Shown one piece after another: positions 3,799 through 37,087 of a DNA stretch of 37,354 bases. The position numbers and the translations under genes were made by a program. Position 1 is the first letter of the stretch, and each line of letters starts with the position of its first letter. The stretch comes from a virus, in IMG/VR virus record IMGVR_UViG_3300048839_001685, positions 1 to 37,354 of that record. One strand, written 5' to 3'. The notes beneath the pieces were generated by a model. It saw only the letters and a program-made list of their open reading frames with translations. It had not been told where the DNA came from and made no database searches.

Positions 3799-4157
3799 AG
3801 GGCCTCTACGAGATCGCCGAGACGGTGGAGCGGACCAGAGGTGGGGTGGTGATCCACATCGAATCTGACGGAATCGCATTCCAAATGGGCGACCTTCGGT
3901 GCATCGCCTCGAACGGCGGCGGGTGGGATCACCTCTCGGTCTCGCGCCCGGATCGCGTCCCCCGCTGGGACGAGATGGAGTCCATGCGCAAGATCGTCTT
4001 CACGAGGGACGAGTACGCCTATCAGCTCGGCGTGCCCGAGCGCGAGCACATCAACTGCCACCCACACTGCCTGCACTGGTGGCGTTCACAGGGATGCGAG
4101 ATCCCGATCCCGCCGAAATGGATGGTGGGGCCGATCTCCGCCGAGGTGCGAACATGA
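3795..4157 (+). CDS. DUF7694-like phage protein
   Basis: A 120-residue protein with a pattern seen in many phage early regions: GGGWDHLSVSRPDRVPRWDEM, then KIVFTRDEYAYQL, then INCHPHCLHWWR, and a C-terminal IPIPPKWMVGP. I associate this spacing with DUF7694, whose role is not known to me. The conserved His and Trp residues around residues 85-93 suggest a small compact domain. The start at 3795 is set by the ATGA overlap with the previous gene; an in-frame ATG at 3765 would overlap more. The end overlaps the DUF5131 gene by four bases. Confidence 0.7.
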   Translation: MKGLYEIAETVERTRGGVVIHIESDGIAFQMGDLRCIASNGGGWDHLSVSRPDRVPRWDEMESMRKIVFTRDEYAYQLGVPEREHINCHPHCLHWWRSQGCEIPIPPKWMVGPISAEVRT

Positions 4158-5224
4158 GCAAGACCGGCATCGAGTGGACCGAGCAGGCGTGGAACCCGGT
4201 CTCGGGGTGCACGCCGGTCTCGCCGGGGTGCCTGAACTGCTACGCGGCGACGATGGCGGTGCGGCTGCACGGGATGACGGCCAAGGGCCGGAAGGTCACG
4301 GGGTACGGCGGCGAGCCGCTGGCGGCGATGAAGGGCGGGCGGGCGGTCTTCACCGGCGAGGTTCGGCTGCTCGACGAGAAACTGGACGAGCCGTTGCGGC
4401 GGCGCGTGCCGACCACCTGGTTCGTCAACTCGATGAGCGACCTGTTCCATGAGAGGGTGCCGTTCGAGTACATCGACCGCGTGTTCGCGGTGATGGCGCT
4501 CTGCCCGCAGCACACATTCCAGGTTCTGACGAAGCGGGCCGAGCGAATGGCGGAGTACCTCAATCGCCGAGAGATTTCGAGGGCGTGGACGCCAAGCGTT
4601 CGATTCGGAGACGGCGGTAGTGATGCCGCGAAGTGGAAGACGCCATGCGACAGTGTGTATTCGATTGCGTGGGAGATGAAGGGTCGCGAGGCTGCACCAA
4701 GTCTCATCTGGCCCCTCCCCAATGTCTGGCTCGGTGTCAGCGCCGAGGACCAGACGCGGCTGGACGAGCGGCTGGGGCACCTGCTCGCGTGCCCCGCGGC
4801 GGTCCGGTTCCTCAGTTGCGAGCCGCTGCTGGGGCCGATCCGGCTGCCGAGGGACGCGAAGGAGCGCGGGCTGGGGTGGGTCATCGTCGGCGGGGAGAGC
4901 GGGGCCAGGGCGAGGCCGTGCAATGTCCGATGGGTCCGCGAGCTGGTCGGGCAGTGCCGCGACTTTGGCATCCCGGTGTACATCAAGCAGCTCGGGCGGT
5001 TCGTCGTCGACCGCAACGACGCGGGGTTCGACGCGGAGGACTGGGTTGGCGAGGACGGGACGCCGGTCGAGAAGTCGGCGTGGCCGTGCTCGACGCTCGA
5101 TGTGGAGCCGATGGACCCGATGGCGTACCAGGGCGCCCCGGTCCGCGTGCGGCTGAGAGAATCGAAGGGCAAGGTGATGGCCGAGTGGCCGATGGATCTG
5201 CGTGTGCGGGAGGTGCCGGGATGA
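4154..5224 (+). CDS. DUF5131 (phage Gp37/Gp68) family protein
   Basis: A 356-residue protein. The N-terminus GIEWTEQAWNPVSGC, followed by C19-x6-C26-x2-C29 and YA, is the signature of the phage Gp37/Gp68 (DUF5131) family. The family has a three-Cys motif reminiscent of radical SAM enzymes, and further blocks are present: FVNSMSDLFHE, FQVLTKRAERM, NVWLGVSAED, RFLSCEPLLGPI, WVIVGGESGARARP, PVYIKQLG. It may be an iron-sulfur enzyme acting on nucleic acid or nucleotide, but no reaction is established that I know of. Length is somewhat above the usual 230-280 residues, owing to an insertion around residues 138-175 and a C-terminal extension. It overlaps both neighbours by four bases. Confidence 0.9.
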   Translation: MSKTGIEWTEQAWNPVSGCTPVSPGCLNCYAATMAVRLHGMTAKGRKVTGYGGEPLAAMKGGRAVFTGEVRLLDEKLDEPLRRRVPTTWFVNSMSDLFHERVPFEYIDRVFAVMALCPQHTFQVLTKRAERMAEYLNRREISRAWTPSVRFGDGGSDAAKWKTPCDSVYSIAWEMKGREAAPSLIWPLPNVWLGVSAEDQTRLDERLGHLLACPAAVRFLSCEPLLGPIRLPRDAKERGLGWVIVGGESGARARPCNVRWVRELVGQCRDFGIPVYIKQLGRFVVDRNDAGFDAEDWVGEDGTPVEKSAWPCSTLDVEPMDPMAYQGAPVRVRLRESKGKVMAEWPMDLRVREVPG

Positions 5225-12358: not shown

Positions 12359-12546
12359 GCGGGAAGAGGGCCGGGGGAACCGGCCCGGGAAGGGACACGG
12401 CTCGGCGAGCCGTGCCACCGACTTGAAAAGGGACACGGCTCGGCGAGCCGTGCCACCAGAGCAGGAAGACACGGCTCGGCGAGCCGTGCCACCGACTTGA
12501 AAAGGAACACGGCTCGGCGAGCCGTGCCACCGGAAAGGAACCCGCG
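12359..12546. repeat. Hairpin and four family B units
   Basis: A perfect 7-bp hairpin GGGCCGG/CCGGCCC at 12368-12386 follows the stop, without a T-tract. Four B units then lie at about 12392-12531. The first and third are each followed by GACTTGAAAAGG, so a B-plus-spacer block has been duplicated. The last unit runs into the ribosome site AAAGGAA of the next gene. Confidence 0.88.
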
Positions 12547-18438: not shown

Positions 18439-18659
18439 GGAGCGTTTACCACAGAGGCGCAGAGGGCGCAGAGAACAGACTGAATCGGCTCTGTGATCTC
18501 TGCGACTCTGTGGTGAATGAATGGGTTGGAGCGACAGGCGGGACGCCTGTCCCACCGAGAGAGAAGAGAGAGAGAGGACACGGCTCGGCGAGCCGTGCCA
18601 CCGGCGAGCCGTGCCACCAAGAGCCGTGCCACCGGCGAGCCGCCGGGGAAGGAAGTGCG
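18439..18659. repeat. Repeat cluster: A, C, B with half-units
   Basis: A at 18445-18517, starting six bases after the stop; C at 18531-18558; B at about 18577-18602, followed by three partial B units to about 18,640. The ribosome site GGAAGGAAG of the next gene follows. Confidence 0.88.
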
Positions 18660-26636: not shown

Positions 26637-27003
26637 GTGCGGGGACCGGCGACAAGCAGGGCATACCGCGGAGGCGCAGACCGGAGACACGGCTCGGCGA
26701 GCCGTGCCACCAAGAGCCGTGCCACCGGGGAACCTGCTGGTGTGCGTGGGGTGCTCGGCGAGCGATCGGAGCGGGCGGTGCGGGATCGGGGGCTCGGCGC
26801 TGGCCTGCCCGCGTCGCAAGTTCGACGGGACCGGCGTGGTCTACTGGCCGACCTTCGGCGGGCGGGCGCGCGGCGCGGCCTGGTACGGCGCGCCGATGCC
26901 GCTGCGGTGGTGGTTCCGGGCGAGGTTCGGCGTGTGGGCGAGGGTGGAAGGGTGCGGATGCGTGAAGATGCTGAAAGACGCGTGGCTGTGGGTGAGGCGT
27001 TGA
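26629..27003 (+). CDS. Small Cys-rich protein with repeat in its N-terminal part
   Basis: A 124-residue protein with a GTG start overlapping the previous gene by eight bases. Residues about 18-35 (TGDTARRAVPPRAVPPG) are a translated family B repeat. The conserved-looking part is LVCVGCSASDRSGRCGIGGSALACPRRKFDGTGVVYWPTF, with four Cys, then a Trp/Arg-rich end. A GTG at about 26,739 in the same frame could be the true start, which would put the repeat in the leader instead. Unknown function; it may be a minor virion protein or a zinc protein. Confidence 0.5.
   Translation: MCECGDRRQAGHTAEAQTGDTARRAVPPRAVPPGNLLVCVGCSASDRSGRCGIGGSALACPRRKFDGTGVVYWPTFGGRARGAAWYGAPMPLRWWFRARFGVWARVEGCGCVKMLKDAWLWVRR
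26690..26730. repeat. Family B unit and half-unit inside an ORF
   Basis: B unit at about 26,690-26,715, then a half-unit to 26,730, read in frame within the ORF at 26,629. A decayed A left arm (CCGCGGAGGCGCAGA) lies just before it at about 26,667. Confidence 0.8.
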
Positions 27004-27380
27004 CGATCGACTCGGCGGCGGACGGCGTGGCGCTGCTGGCGTGGGCCGTGCGCGTCGTGCAGGACGCGGGGTTCGAGATCGTGGGCATGGACCCCGCGGC
27101 GGTGAGCGTGCGGCGGGCGGAGATCGGGGGGGAGATGGATCGCGACAGGCGGGACGCCTGTCCCACCGAGAGAGAGAGGACACGGCTTGGCGAGCCGTGC
27201 CACCGCGAGCCGTGCCACCGCGAGCCGTGCCACCGCGAGCCGTGCGGCCGCGAGCCGTGCGGCCGGGAGCCGGAGCAATGGACGGGGGCGGTGTGCGGGG
27301 CGTGCGGGTCGACGCGGCTGGTGGCGTCGGGGTCGTGCGCGACCTGCCACGACTGCGGGGCGACGACGGGGTGTGGGTAG
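26958..27380 (+). CDS. Zinc-ribbon protein with translated repeats as linker
   Basis: A 140-residue protein. Residues 1-60 are a helical and strand domain (ALTIDSAADGVALLAWAVRVV; FEIVGMDPAAVSVRRAEIGGE). Residues about 63-107 are translated repeats (DRRDACPTERERTRLGEPC, then repeated HREPC and GREP). Residues 113-140 form a zinc ribbon: CGACGSTRLVASGSCATC, then HDCGATTGCG, resembling the Cys-rich C-terminal tail of B12-dependent ribonucleotide reductases. In those it holds redox or metal-binding cysteines; here the partner is unknown. ATG 26958 follows GGAAGG and overlaps the previous gene by 46 bases. The repeats sit between two protein-like parts, so they were probably inserted without breaking the frame. 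Confidence 0.65.
   Translation: MREDAERRVAVGEALTIDSAADGVALLAWAVRVVQDAGFEIVGMDPAAVSVRRAEIGGEMDRDRRDACPTERERTRLGEPCHREPCHREPCHREPCGREPCGREPEQWTGAVCGACGSTRLVASGSCATCHDCGATTGCG
27141..27275. repeat. C plus expanded B repeats inside a coding region
   Basis: Family C at 27141-27168, B at about 27178-27204, then four to five half-units (GCGAGCCGTGCCACC-like, the last two GCGGCC) to 27,275, all in frame with the gene at 26,958. Confidence 0.88.
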
Positions 27381-30974: not shown

Positions 30975-31541
30975 ATGGCGAGGATCTGGGGTCGGAATGA
31001 TGACGGGCGGGGAGCCGACAGGCGGGACGCCTGTCCCATCGGGGATGGTGGGGACACGGCTCGGCGAGCCGTGCCACCGCGAGCCGTGCCACCGGGTGCG
31101 GTGTGCGTCGAATCGCACCTGGCGGGGGGGACGGGGACATCGCTGCTGGGGCGGCGGCGGATGCAGCGGGATGTGATCGCGGACGCGGCCGGGCTGGACA
31201 CGCACTTGCGGATCGCGGAGGCGCTCTGCCGCGCCTACCGCGACCTGTTCGACGGGGGCGAGCCCGATGTCAACTGGGGGCGGGCCCGCAAGATGCGGGC
31301 GGACCCGGCCTCGCTGGTGGCCGCGGCCGAGGCCGCGTCCTCGAGCTGCCCCGTGATGCAGATCGTGGTCTGGGACCTGCGGCTGGACCGGAGGGGGACG
31401 CTGGCGCTGCTGCACCGCGCGCTGCGGGTCTTCGAGGCCTGGGACGCGGGGGAGCTGATCGGCGTCTACGGCGCCGGCGAGGCGGAGCGGCGCTGCGGGA
31501 TGCGCGACGCGGCCATGAACCCGATCGGGGGGTGGTGGTGA
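30975..31541 (+). CDS. Early rightward protein with N-terminal repeats, unknown
   Basis: A 188-residue protein, the first gene after the rightward promoter (the Cro or early-gene place). Residues 15-41 are translated C and B repeats (DRRDACPIGDGGDTARRAV). The body is helical, with two repeats of Leu-rich helices (LDTHLRIAEALCRAYRDLFDGG; GTLALLHRALRVFEAWDAGELIGVYG). GAAAGGGG precedes the ATG at 30975. Alternative in-frame starts are GTG 31101 and ATG 31161, which would leave the repeats in the leader. It may be an early regulator; no HTH is evident. The end overlaps the next gene by one base. Confidence 0.55.
   Translation: MARIWGRNDDGRGADRRDACPIGDGGDTARRAVPPRAVPPGAVCVESHLAGGTGTSLLGRRRMQRDVIADAAGLDTHLRIAEALCRAYRDLFDGGEPDVNWGRARKMRADPASLVAAAEAASSSCPVMQIVVWDLRLDRRGTLALLHRALRVFEAWDAGELIGVYGAGEAERRCGMRDAAMNPIGGWW
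31017..31093. repeat. C and B repeats inside an ORF
   Basis: C at 31017-31042, then B at about 31052-31078 and a half-unit to 31,093, in frame with the gene starting at 30,975 if that start is right. Confidence 0.82.
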
Positions 31542-32476
31542 TGCTGGCGCGGGCCGTGAATGACATCGGTCAGGCCGGTGGCGTCGAGATCCGCGGGGAG
31601 CGGGTCTCGATCGAGGAGTGCCGGCGGCGGGCGTCGGCGCTGGCGGCCGAGTACGCCGAGGCCCGGCGTGCGGCGATGGGGCGGGGCGTGGCCCTGGGCG
31701 AGCTGCTGACCGCGGTGCGGGCCCAGCTCGGGCGCGGGGCGTGGGGCGCGTTCCTGCAGCGGGCCCGGATAAACATGCACACGGCGAACCGGGCGATGCG
31801 CCTGGCCCGCGAGTATGGGGACGGGGCGGGCGGGATCGACGCCGAGCGGGTCGAGGCCCGCAGGCGCGAGCGGATCGCGGCCGGTCGGATCGATCCGGTC
31901 GGGCCGCTGGCCGTCAAGCCGGTGGCGGAGATGAGCACGCGCGAGGTGGAGCGGGTGATCGGGATGCGGCCCGCGGATCGGTCCAGGCCGGAGATCAGGC
32001 CGCTGGAGATCAGGCCGCCGGCGTTCCTGGCGGGGGCGCGCTCGGTGACGATCGGCGAGACACCGGACAAAGACCCAAACTGTGACCGCGGTCACAGTTT
32101 CCCTGTTTGTACGGTGCCGGATGAGGGGATCGCGGGGCGGATTTCGCCGGACAAAGACCCAAACTGTGACCGCGTCAACATTTCGGGAGCGACCGGCGGG
32201 GGGCCTGGCTTGCCGGAAGCGGGGGGGACACGGCTCGGCGAGCCGTGCCACCAAGAGCCGGGCCGCCGGGAAGGGACAGGCGGGACGCCTGTCCCACTGG
32301 GGATGGGGGCCGGGGCGGGGGCGAGCGGGCGGCAGCTGGGGCTGATCGACCATGTCGCGACCCTGATCGACGAGCTGCACCGCGACCTGTCGGAGCACCG
32401 CGTGGGGCTGGACCAGGTGGCCGAGCGGCTGCGGAGGCTGCTCGGCCTGATCGACGGGAGACCGTCGCACTCTTGA
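31541..32476 (+). CDS. DUF3102-like early protein with repeats and a palindrome
   Basis: A 311-residue protein. Residues 15-85 (CRRRASALAAEYAEARRAAMGRGVALGELLTAVRAQLG... GAWGAFLQRARINMHTANRAMRLARE) resemble DUF3102, a helical phage domain that follows the pattern G-x-x-L-x-x-A-K... W. A second segment (STREVERVIGMRP) follows. Residues about 175-215 come from a pair of palindrome elements (PDKDPNCDR twice), and residues 222-255 from translated C and B repeats. The C-terminus is a helical pair (LIDHVATLIDELHRDLSEHRVGLDQVAERLRRLLGLID). Its gene region may hold a DNA-binding or replication site. The start is ATG 31541, sharing one base with the previous stop. DUF assignment is tentative. Confidence 0.6.
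   Translation: MLARAVNDIGQAGGVEIRGERVSIEECRRRASALAAEYAEARRAAMGRGVALGELLTAVRAQLGRGAWGAFLQRARINMHTANRAMRLAREYGDGAGGIDAERVEARRRERIAAGRIDPVGPLAVKPVAEMSTREVERVIGMRPADRSRPEIRPLEIRPPAFLAGARSVTIGETPDKDPNCDRGHSFPVCTVPDEGIAGRISPDKDPNCDRVNISGATGGGPGLPEAGGTRLGEPCHQEPGRREGTGGTPVPLGMGAGAGASGRQLGLIDHVATLIDELHRDLSEHRVGLDQVAERLRRLLGLIDGRPSHS
32063..32174. repeat. Palindromic element with a second, decayed copy
   Basis: A perfect 24-bp palindrome at 32077-32100 (halves AAACTGTGACCG and its complement) sits in a longer imperfect one at 32063-32114. The first 28 bases are repeated exactly at 32147-32174, 84 bases away and in frame, with a decayed right half. Both lie inside the gene at 31,541-32,476. Confidence 0.88.
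32204..32298. repeat. Cut C, B, half-unit and C inside a coding region
   Basis: A C-like piece (GGCGGGGGGCCTGGCTTGCC) near 32,194-32,216, B at about 32227-32253, a half-unit to 32,270 and C at about 32274-32298, in frame with the gene at 31,541-32,476. Confidence 0.82.
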
Positions 32477-35641: not shown

Positions 35642-37087
35642 GTGGCCGCGATCCCGCCGACATTCCCCACGCCCGGTCAGATCCGCGTGCATCAGATCAA
35701 GCAGCGGGTGCTCCCCCTGCTTCAGGCCGGGCAGTTCGAGCTCGCGCTCAGCCTGCTCCAAGATGTCCTGCCGCTGGACCGGCGCGACCCCGAACTCCAC
35801 AAGATGCTGGGCAGCTGCCATTCCGCGTTGGAGCAGACCGACAAGGCCCTGGTCCACCTGCGCCGGGCCGCGGAACTGGGCCTGCATGACCCCGAGACGC
35901 TGCTGATGCTCGCGGGCGTATACAGCAACACGGGCGACCTCGCCGCCTCCCTCCGCGTCATCGACCGCATCCTCCGGGAATCGCCCGACGAGCCCCGCGC
36001 GACCCAGTTCAAGGCCCGCCTCCGGCGCTCGATGGGCGACGCGAAGGGCGCCCTGGCCCTCATCGAATCGGCCCGCGCCAAGGGCATCCTCCACCCGCAC
36101 CTGTCCATCCTCCGCTCCGAGTTGCTCCGGCGCGCCAAACGATTCGACGAAGCCGCGGCGGAGATCGAGGCGGTGCTCGCCGACCCCGCGACCCGCCCCG
36201 CCGACCGGCGGGACGCCTTCTTCGAGCTCGGGCATGTGCGCGACGCGATGGGCGAATACGACGCCGCCTTCGAGGCCTTCAGCCGGGGCAACGGGATGCT
36301 CGAGGAGACCCCGATCATCCCGATCGACGAGTTCCGGCGTGTCTGGTCGCGCGAGGCGATCGACCCGATCCCGCAGCTCTCGCCCCCGAAAGATGGTCCG
36401 GTCTTCGTCGTCGGCATGCCCCGCTCGGGCACCACGCTGACCGAGCAGATCCTCGCGGCCCACCCGCGCGTCGCGAGCCTGGGCGAATCCAACGCGTTGA
36501 ATCTGATGCTCTCGGGCATGCCCCCCGAGGCCTTCCACAGCGAGAAGTCGGTCCGCGCGGTCGCGGAGGGCTACGCGGCACGCACCGTTTCCCCCCGGAC
36601 CGCCAGGGCGGCCCGCGTCGTCGACAAGATGCCGGAAAATTACTTCTACCTCCCCCTCATCGCCCGCGCGCTGCCCGGCGCGAAGATCATCCACTGCACC
36701 CGCGACGCGCGGGACACCTGCCTCTCGTGCTTCTTCCAGAACTTCGGCCCCCGCGTCACCTGGAGCCGGCGGATCGAGACCTGCGCCAGGCAGTTCGTGT
36801 TCTACCGGCAGGTCACTGACCACTGGCGGGAGACGCTGGGCGTCGAGATCCACGAGTGCAATTACGAGAGCCTCACGAGCGACCCGCGCCCCGGCGTGGA
36901 GCGCATACTCGCCCATGTCGGCCTGCCCTTCAACGAGGCCTGCATGGCCCACCACACGCAGAGGGCAACCGTGCAGACCGCGAGCGTGGACCAGGTCCGC
37001 AAACCGATCTACACGACCAGCCAGCAGCGCTGGAAGAACTACGAGAAGCATCTCGGGCCGATGCTGGAGATCCTGGAACAGTATTGA
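35642..37087 (+). CDS. TPR-containing sulfotransferase (host)
   Basis: A 481-residue host protein with a GTG start at 35642 behind GGAGG (a GTG at 35612 lacks a site). Residues 15-215 hold about five tetratricopeptide repeats (for example FELALSLLQDVLPLDRRDPELHKMLGSCH; MGEYDAAFEAFSRGN). Residues 250-470 are a sulfotransferase: the 5'-phosphosulfate loop GMPRSGTTLTEQIL (258-271) and the 3'-phosphate motif HCTRDARDTCLS (351-362). It transfers sulfate from PAPS to an unknown acceptor; planctomycetes have many such TPR-sulfotransferases, often linked to sulfated polysaccharide or protein. It starts about 85 bases after the exported-protein gene, with no clear terminator between. Confidence 0.93.
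   Translation: MAAIPPTFPTPGQIRVHQIKQRVLPLLQAGQFELALSLLQDVLPLDRRDPELHKMLGSCHSALEQTDKALVHLRRAAELGLHDPETLLMLAGVYSNTGDLAASLRVIDRILRESPDEPRATQFKARLRRSMGDAKGALALIESARAKGILHPHLSILRSELLRRAKRFDEAAAEIEAVLADPATRPADRRDAFFELGHVRDAMGEYDAAFEAFSRGNGMLEETPIIPIDEFRRVWSREAIDPIPQLSPPKDGPVFVVGMPRSGTTLTEQILAAHPRVASLGESNALNLMLSGMPPEAFHSEKSVRAVAEGYAARTVSPRTARAARVVDKMPENYFYLPLIARALPGAKIIHCTRDARDTCLSCFFQNFGPRVTWSRRIETCARQFVFYRQVTDHWRETLGVEIHECNYESLTSDPRPGVERILAHVGLPFNEACMAHHTQRATVQTASVDQVRKPIYTTSQQRWKNYEKHLGPMLEILEQY

Follow-up and report, generated by a model that had tools for sequence, protein, structure and literature searches.

The phage contig analyzed here carries a gene in which two short palindromes, referred to here as C and B, and an expanded run of B half-units are read in frame between a coding N-terminal part and a zinc ribbon. 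We consider it probable that C, B and the half-units are selfish palindromic elements and that an in-frame array of them became the linker of this ribbon gene. The DNA analyzed (the window) spans an entire IMG/VR record (37,354 bases, 71% GC), and its identity as a phage rests on genes for terminase, portal, protease, scaffold and capsid proteins. Coordinates of the features discussed are summarized in Table 1.

Table 1. Palindromes, half-units and the genes or arrays containing them in the phage window.
Feature	Position	Strand	Basis
Ribbon gene with in-frame palindrome array	27000-27380	+	Codon signal, translation, TTGA overlap
Coding N-terminal part MTIDSAADGVALLAWAVRVVQDAGFEIVGMDPAAVSVRRAEIGGEMDR, 48 residues	27000-27143	+	Codon log-odds
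Repeat linker (C, B and half-units), 129 nt = 43 codons	27144-27272	+	
Palindrome C (GACAGGCGGGACGCCTGTCCCACC), translated DRRDACPT	27144-27167	+	
Palindrome B (ACACGGCTTGGCGAGCCGTGCCACC), 1 mismatch, translated TRLGEPCH	27180-27204	+	
Tandem 15-nt B half-units, 5.5 copies, translated (REPCH/REPCG)n	27190-27272	+	TRF score 131
C-terminal zinc ribbon CGACGSTRLVASGSCATCHDCGATTGCG, class II RNR (NrdJ) tail type	27284-27380 (ribbon about 27291-27377)	+	
Intergenic array closest to the ribbon-gene array (C, GA linker, B, half-units)	18533-18640	+	Local alignment
Second phage gene with in-frame repeats, DUF3102-like N-terminal part, ...GGTRLGEPCHQEPGRREGTGGTPVP...	31532-32476	+	Codon signal, profiles
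B (32228-32252), half-unit (32255-32267) and C (32275-32298) within gene 31532-32476	32223-32298	+	

The initial annotation had read C and the expanded half-units as lying in frame between an N-terminal part and the Cys-rich ribbon, and this arrangement was observed: the first stop of the frame is at 27378-27380, upstream it is open back to 26634, and its translation includes ...EIGGEMDRDRRDACPTERERTRLGEPCHREPCHREPCHREPCGREPCGREPEQWTGAVCGACG.... A short GA-rich linker separates C from B, which is followed by four extra half-units of 15 nt each; half-units fall at 27192, 27207, 27222, 27237 and 27252 in exact 15-nt steps that continue to 27264-27272. The perfect run of 15-nt period at 27190-27245 (56 nt) is the longest in the window, and both this periodic run and the copy number of B are above chance expectation. 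Codon log-odds in the N-terminal part ranged from 0.28 to 0.36 per codon for frame 0, against values of -0.5 or lower for the remaining forward frames, and in frame 0 they climb to 0.36 per codon at 27000, next to the end of the upstream gene at 27003. The ATG at 26958, from which the gene had been taken to start, falls within the coding stretch of that upstream gene and is probably not the start, since the codon signal begins at about 27000 and a TTG at that position overlaps the upstream stop (TTGA). TTG 27000 is the likely start.

It had also been pointed out that B and C are free of stop codons in all six frames. This is true of both elements but is weak evidence, as 55% of random 25-mers from this window (and 5% of random 128-mers) are likewise stop-free in six frames. 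Stop triplets make up only 1.3% in the window, and 43 codons would stay open by chance with a probability of 0.58. Six stop-free frames were thus rejected as a special property, being common in this GC-rich DNA. The weight comes from coding sequence on both sides in one frame, supported by codon usage in the N-terminal part and by homology in the ribbon.

The product of the ribbon gene is a protein of 126 residues. It matched the NCBIfam model NF005736 with an E value of 1.4e-4 for the whole protein and 3e-4 for the ribbon alone, far below the whole-enzyme cut-off, as expected of a fragment. The ribbon alone aligns with the last 30 positions of the model and has the NrdJ-type cysteine pattern, and its best phage matches were NrdJ C-termini. 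Class II ribonucleotide reductase (NrdJ) carries a CxxC...CxxC ribbon at its extreme C-terminus, as does the phage protein, where, however, the ribbon sits on a short protein with no reductase part. No Pfam, PHROG or NCBIfam match and no known relative was found for the N-terminal part (27000-27143). No array-less homologue of the ribbon gene emerged from viral contigs, from phage records or from 298 genomes belonging to the class; searches with the gene and its neighbours gave only NrdJ tails or unrelated ribbons, and distant prophages whose capsid protein is related had no B, C or ribbon gene in the stretches read. Splicing the N-terminal part directly to the ribbon improved the NrdJ match from an E value of 1e-4 to 4e-8, but shuffled N-terminal parts improved it about equally, and the splice test was rejected as evidence of insertion. 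With no array-less relative found and the splice test failing its control, insertion into the phage ribbon gene is something we infer by analogy.

B occurs in 29 copies in the phage, all on the + strand, from 1551 to 32252 (the reversed control pattern gave 0). Apart from those in the ribbon gene and in the gene at 31532-32476, these copies are intergenic, and in most cases the final unit stands some 7 to 45 nt upstream of a start codon. The arrays are often ordered A, C, B and extra half-units, as if part of 5′ leaders. The longest exact match of the ribbon-gene array elsewhere in the window (34 nt) lies in the intergenic array at 18533-18640; over the stretch compared, the alignment of the two arrays has gaps of 9, 1 and 1 nt. 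The two single-base gaps convert 16-nt steps to 15-nt steps, a change that fits with keeping of the frame; most intergenic arrays also step by 15 nt, and the spacing is therefore no proof of selection for frame.

The gene at 31532-32476 has a coding signal up to 32020 that resumes in the same frame beyond 32300, and it matched PF11300 (E 9e-5, just below the cut-off) and phrog_15609 (E 4e-6). Neither of the two phage open reading frames that hold B and C in frame has an assigned function. Just upstream of B and C in the second gene, a stretch of about 27 nt encoding PDKDPNCDR occurs twice as a direct repeat. Other repeats in the window include a tandem pair, 98% identical, of a 74-nt unit that contains two B palindromes (12394-12531) and, where the contig begins (1-306), an open frame with almost five tandem repeats of a 63-nt unit. 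The phage also carries a gene whose product combines TPR repeats with a sulfotransferase domain (35642-37087, PF13469 E 5e-37) and a gene matching DUF5131 (4154-5224, PF07505 E 8e-80).

Outside the phage, the exact 25-mer of B was absent from every other viral contig searched, and among 84,980 species genomes it was found at 16 loci, all of them in Phycisphaerales MAGs. With one mismatch allowed, B was present in 18 of 120 genomes of the Phycisphaerales family, and across the phylum its 24-mer form was recovered from 4 of 392 genomes. Given this restriction of exact B to Phycisphaerales, the host of the phage is probably a member of this lineage. Host-lineage genomes of 3-4 Mb contain from a few to some 57 copies, compared with 29 in the 37-kb phage.

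The Phycisphaerales loci provided 113 distinct B copies, and 23 of them sit in an open frame that is flanked on each side by coding signal, a count in which some codon-score calls may be antisense shadows or repeat counts of one gene. For this reason we rely on genes supported by homology. FAH aligned end to end with a solved relative, with a gap at HGSESRAT. In TrpE, the structure alignment halts at RTMVV and restarts at RTWTYHIQAAGG, skipping PTEGGTAPGGAALRAVDEESQTHGSESRAT, and for most relatives in the family the match is split in two, with the insert left out; at this site the aligned relatives mostly have seven to a dozen or so residues and the B-bearing TrpE about 30. The structure alignment of RecG is broken at two inserts (residues 516-552 and about 629-677), and alignments are gapped or broken at the B insert in the middle coil of ClpB and at that between residues 191 and 223 of PGI. 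B in SMC occupies a lineage-specific stretch flanked by two matched blocks. Pfam backs DnaE, asparagine synthase (AsnB), a UvrD-type helicase, methionyl-tRNA synthetase (MetRS) and a DUF58 protein, while the support for NuoL is an antiporter domain upstream of the B site.

AsnB contains expanded half-units (GGTAPGGTALGGTALGGTALRAV), the same kind of 15-nt expansion that the phage shows. Host inserts often pair two B copies in head-to-head orientation, with GGTGGC...GCCACC as their ends; the flanks of relatives at these sites are too diverged to show any target-site duplication, a criterion for MITEs. At the TrpE loop, where genome G359 holds B-type inserts, genome G311 (locus L188) has a different GC-rich palindrome (GCGGGCTGGAAAGCCCGC) in frame. 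The proposal in the initial annotation that such elements serve as ready-made linkers within which half-units expand thus holds for the host lineage, where entry into genes in frame and expansion there are strongly supported, and is further supported by the second phage gene; for the ribbon gene itself it stands as an inferred case, no homologue joining the two parts directly having been found.

In 11 of the 12 homology-supported host genes, B is read in the phase giving HGS[AE]SRAT or, reversed, GGTA[RL]RAV, and only the synthetase differs. With all phases equally probable, a bias at least this strong (11 or more of 12) would arise with a probability of 5e-5 for one given phase and 1.4e-4 for any phase. 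No phase of B contains a stop, and the preference therefore suggests either selection on the peptide or a preference for certain targets. The usual host phase encodes no cysteine. Both phage genes translate B as TRLGEPCH, a phase unlike that of these 11 host genes.

These observations may be accounted for by the following model. B and C would be short palindromes, shared by a Phycisphaerales lineage and the phage analyzed here, that multiply as selfish, non-autonomous elements, settling mostly between genes and at times in a tolerant loop or linker of a gene. Within genes, copies would persist only if in frame at such a loop. As the units are stop-free in every frame and the half-unit measures 15 nt (five codons), an in-frame copy would give the protein a flexible linker, whose length could later change by whole half-units without loss of the frame. 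In the phage, an array like that at 18533 may in this way have become the 43-codon linker joining the N-terminal domain to the NrdJ-type ribbon. The array, its open frame with coding signal and homology on its flanks, the intergenic near-copy, the second phage gene and the host insertions with insert-less relatives are observed; the ribbon gene would once have been array-less, its protein is presumably made, the half-units may have grown by slippage, and any mode of movement is likewise conjectural. The repeat segment of the ribbon protein is predicted to be a disordered linker, at low confidence and from a single-sequence structure prediction of poor quality that used no alignment.

Alternatively, an N-terminal gene may have lost its stop and now run through an ordinary intergenic array into a separate ribbon gene of 29 codons that begins with GTG 27291, the fusion being a by-product. 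Every other array but one is intergenic and ends at the short distance from a start codon given above, a pattern that GTG 27291 with GGAG upstream would match; moreover, the ribbon can be a module, since NrdJ tails end in such ribbons, and fusion would be easy because array DNA is stop-free. We nevertheless regard this explanation as unlikely. A free-standing ribbon gene of 29 residues would be unusual, ribosomes starting at 27000 would make the fusion anyway as there is no stop between 27000 and 27378, and true insertion into genes does occur in the host genes. Short reads joined or stretched at repeats could in principle produce such an array in a metagenome contig with many near-identical arrays, and the copy number in the 56-nt perfect tandem run could be wrong. 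However, the longest exact match elsewhere in the window is below the usual assembly words, the frame and the ribbon are intact, and independent genome assemblies show similar insertions in conserved genes, making an assembly artefact highly improbable.

The regular spacing of five cysteines, one every five residues, next to a cysteine-rich ribbon could also indicate that the repeat peptide was selected as a functional linker or a metal-binding arm acting with the ribbon, and the frame used in the ribbon gene encodes cysteine, unlike the usual host frame. This too we hold to be improbable: the same phase is found in the second phage gene, which has no ribbon, the linker is predicted (with low confidence) to be disordered, and no relatives were found in which the cysteines could show conservation.

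Insertion of selfish palindromes in frame, the reading preferred here, has precedents, and the B and C insertions are the same kind of phenomenon as the following elements. Rickettsia palindromic elements (RPEs; Ogata 2000, as cited in PMC10969869 and PMC3767692) are described as palindromes of about 100-150 bp from low-GC genomes, many of them intergenic and some in frame in unrelated housekeeping genes that they do not destroy. B and C are similarly palindromic, dispersed and in frame in unrelated known genes, with insert-less homologues in the case of the host genes, but they are about 25 bp long, GC-rich, stop-free in all frames and arrayed as 15-nt half-units, and they occur in a different phylum and also in a phage; length and occurrence set them apart. 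Palindromic elements of Wolbachia and coding palindromes of Methanocaldococcus jannaschii are also protein-coding and found in housekeeping genes (cited in PMC2996958); the likeness to B and C, which occur in different organisms, is one of description. Intragenic REPs, GTAG/CGTC-tagged palindromes of 20-40 bp with RAYT transposases, occasionally lie in genes, and REP families have been reported in Planctomycetes (PMC3733652). B and C are likewise short palindromes and occasionally intragenic.

Counting GTAG only, the tag was present within 16 nt upstream of 0 of 29 B copies in the phage, 1 of 44 in G359 and 7 of 25 in G003, and was rejected as a constant feature of B on these counts. The Y1 transposase (PF01797) was absent from the phage; among the MAGs, which are incomplete, it was absent from G001, G002 and G004 and present in G003, G005, G359, G205 and G319. 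In the six loci read, including the strongest host ones, B and C were not adjacent to Y1 genes, which makes RAYT a less likely mobilizer as far as these loci go. Near its Y1 gene, locus L177 of G003 has a GTAG-headed palindrome (GTAGCCACGGG...CCCGTG) resembling the GTAG-headed ones beside some host B copies.

Our search of the open-access literature, with most subscription papers lying outside it, returned no report of coding palindromes for Phycisphaerae or phages. What is new here is the occurrence of coding palindromes in another phylum than that of Rickettsia and Wolbachia, and in a phage. In-frame palindromes in housekeeping genes have mostly been treated as an oddity of these two obligate intracellular bacteria. 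We tentatively raise the possibility, itself doubtful, that Phycisphaerales not known to be intracellular have a lineage-specific coding-palindrome system that is carried and spread by phage, in which frame-neutral 15-nt half-units lengthen loops of essential enzymes and the element is tuned to survive within genes by its lack of stops and a preferred phase that yields small polar residues. Occurrence in planctomycetes, and of the same repeat in a phage, would open to test the generality of such palindromes as a source of new protein segments, their carriage by phages, and the reason for the prevalence of one codon phase when no frame contains a stop.
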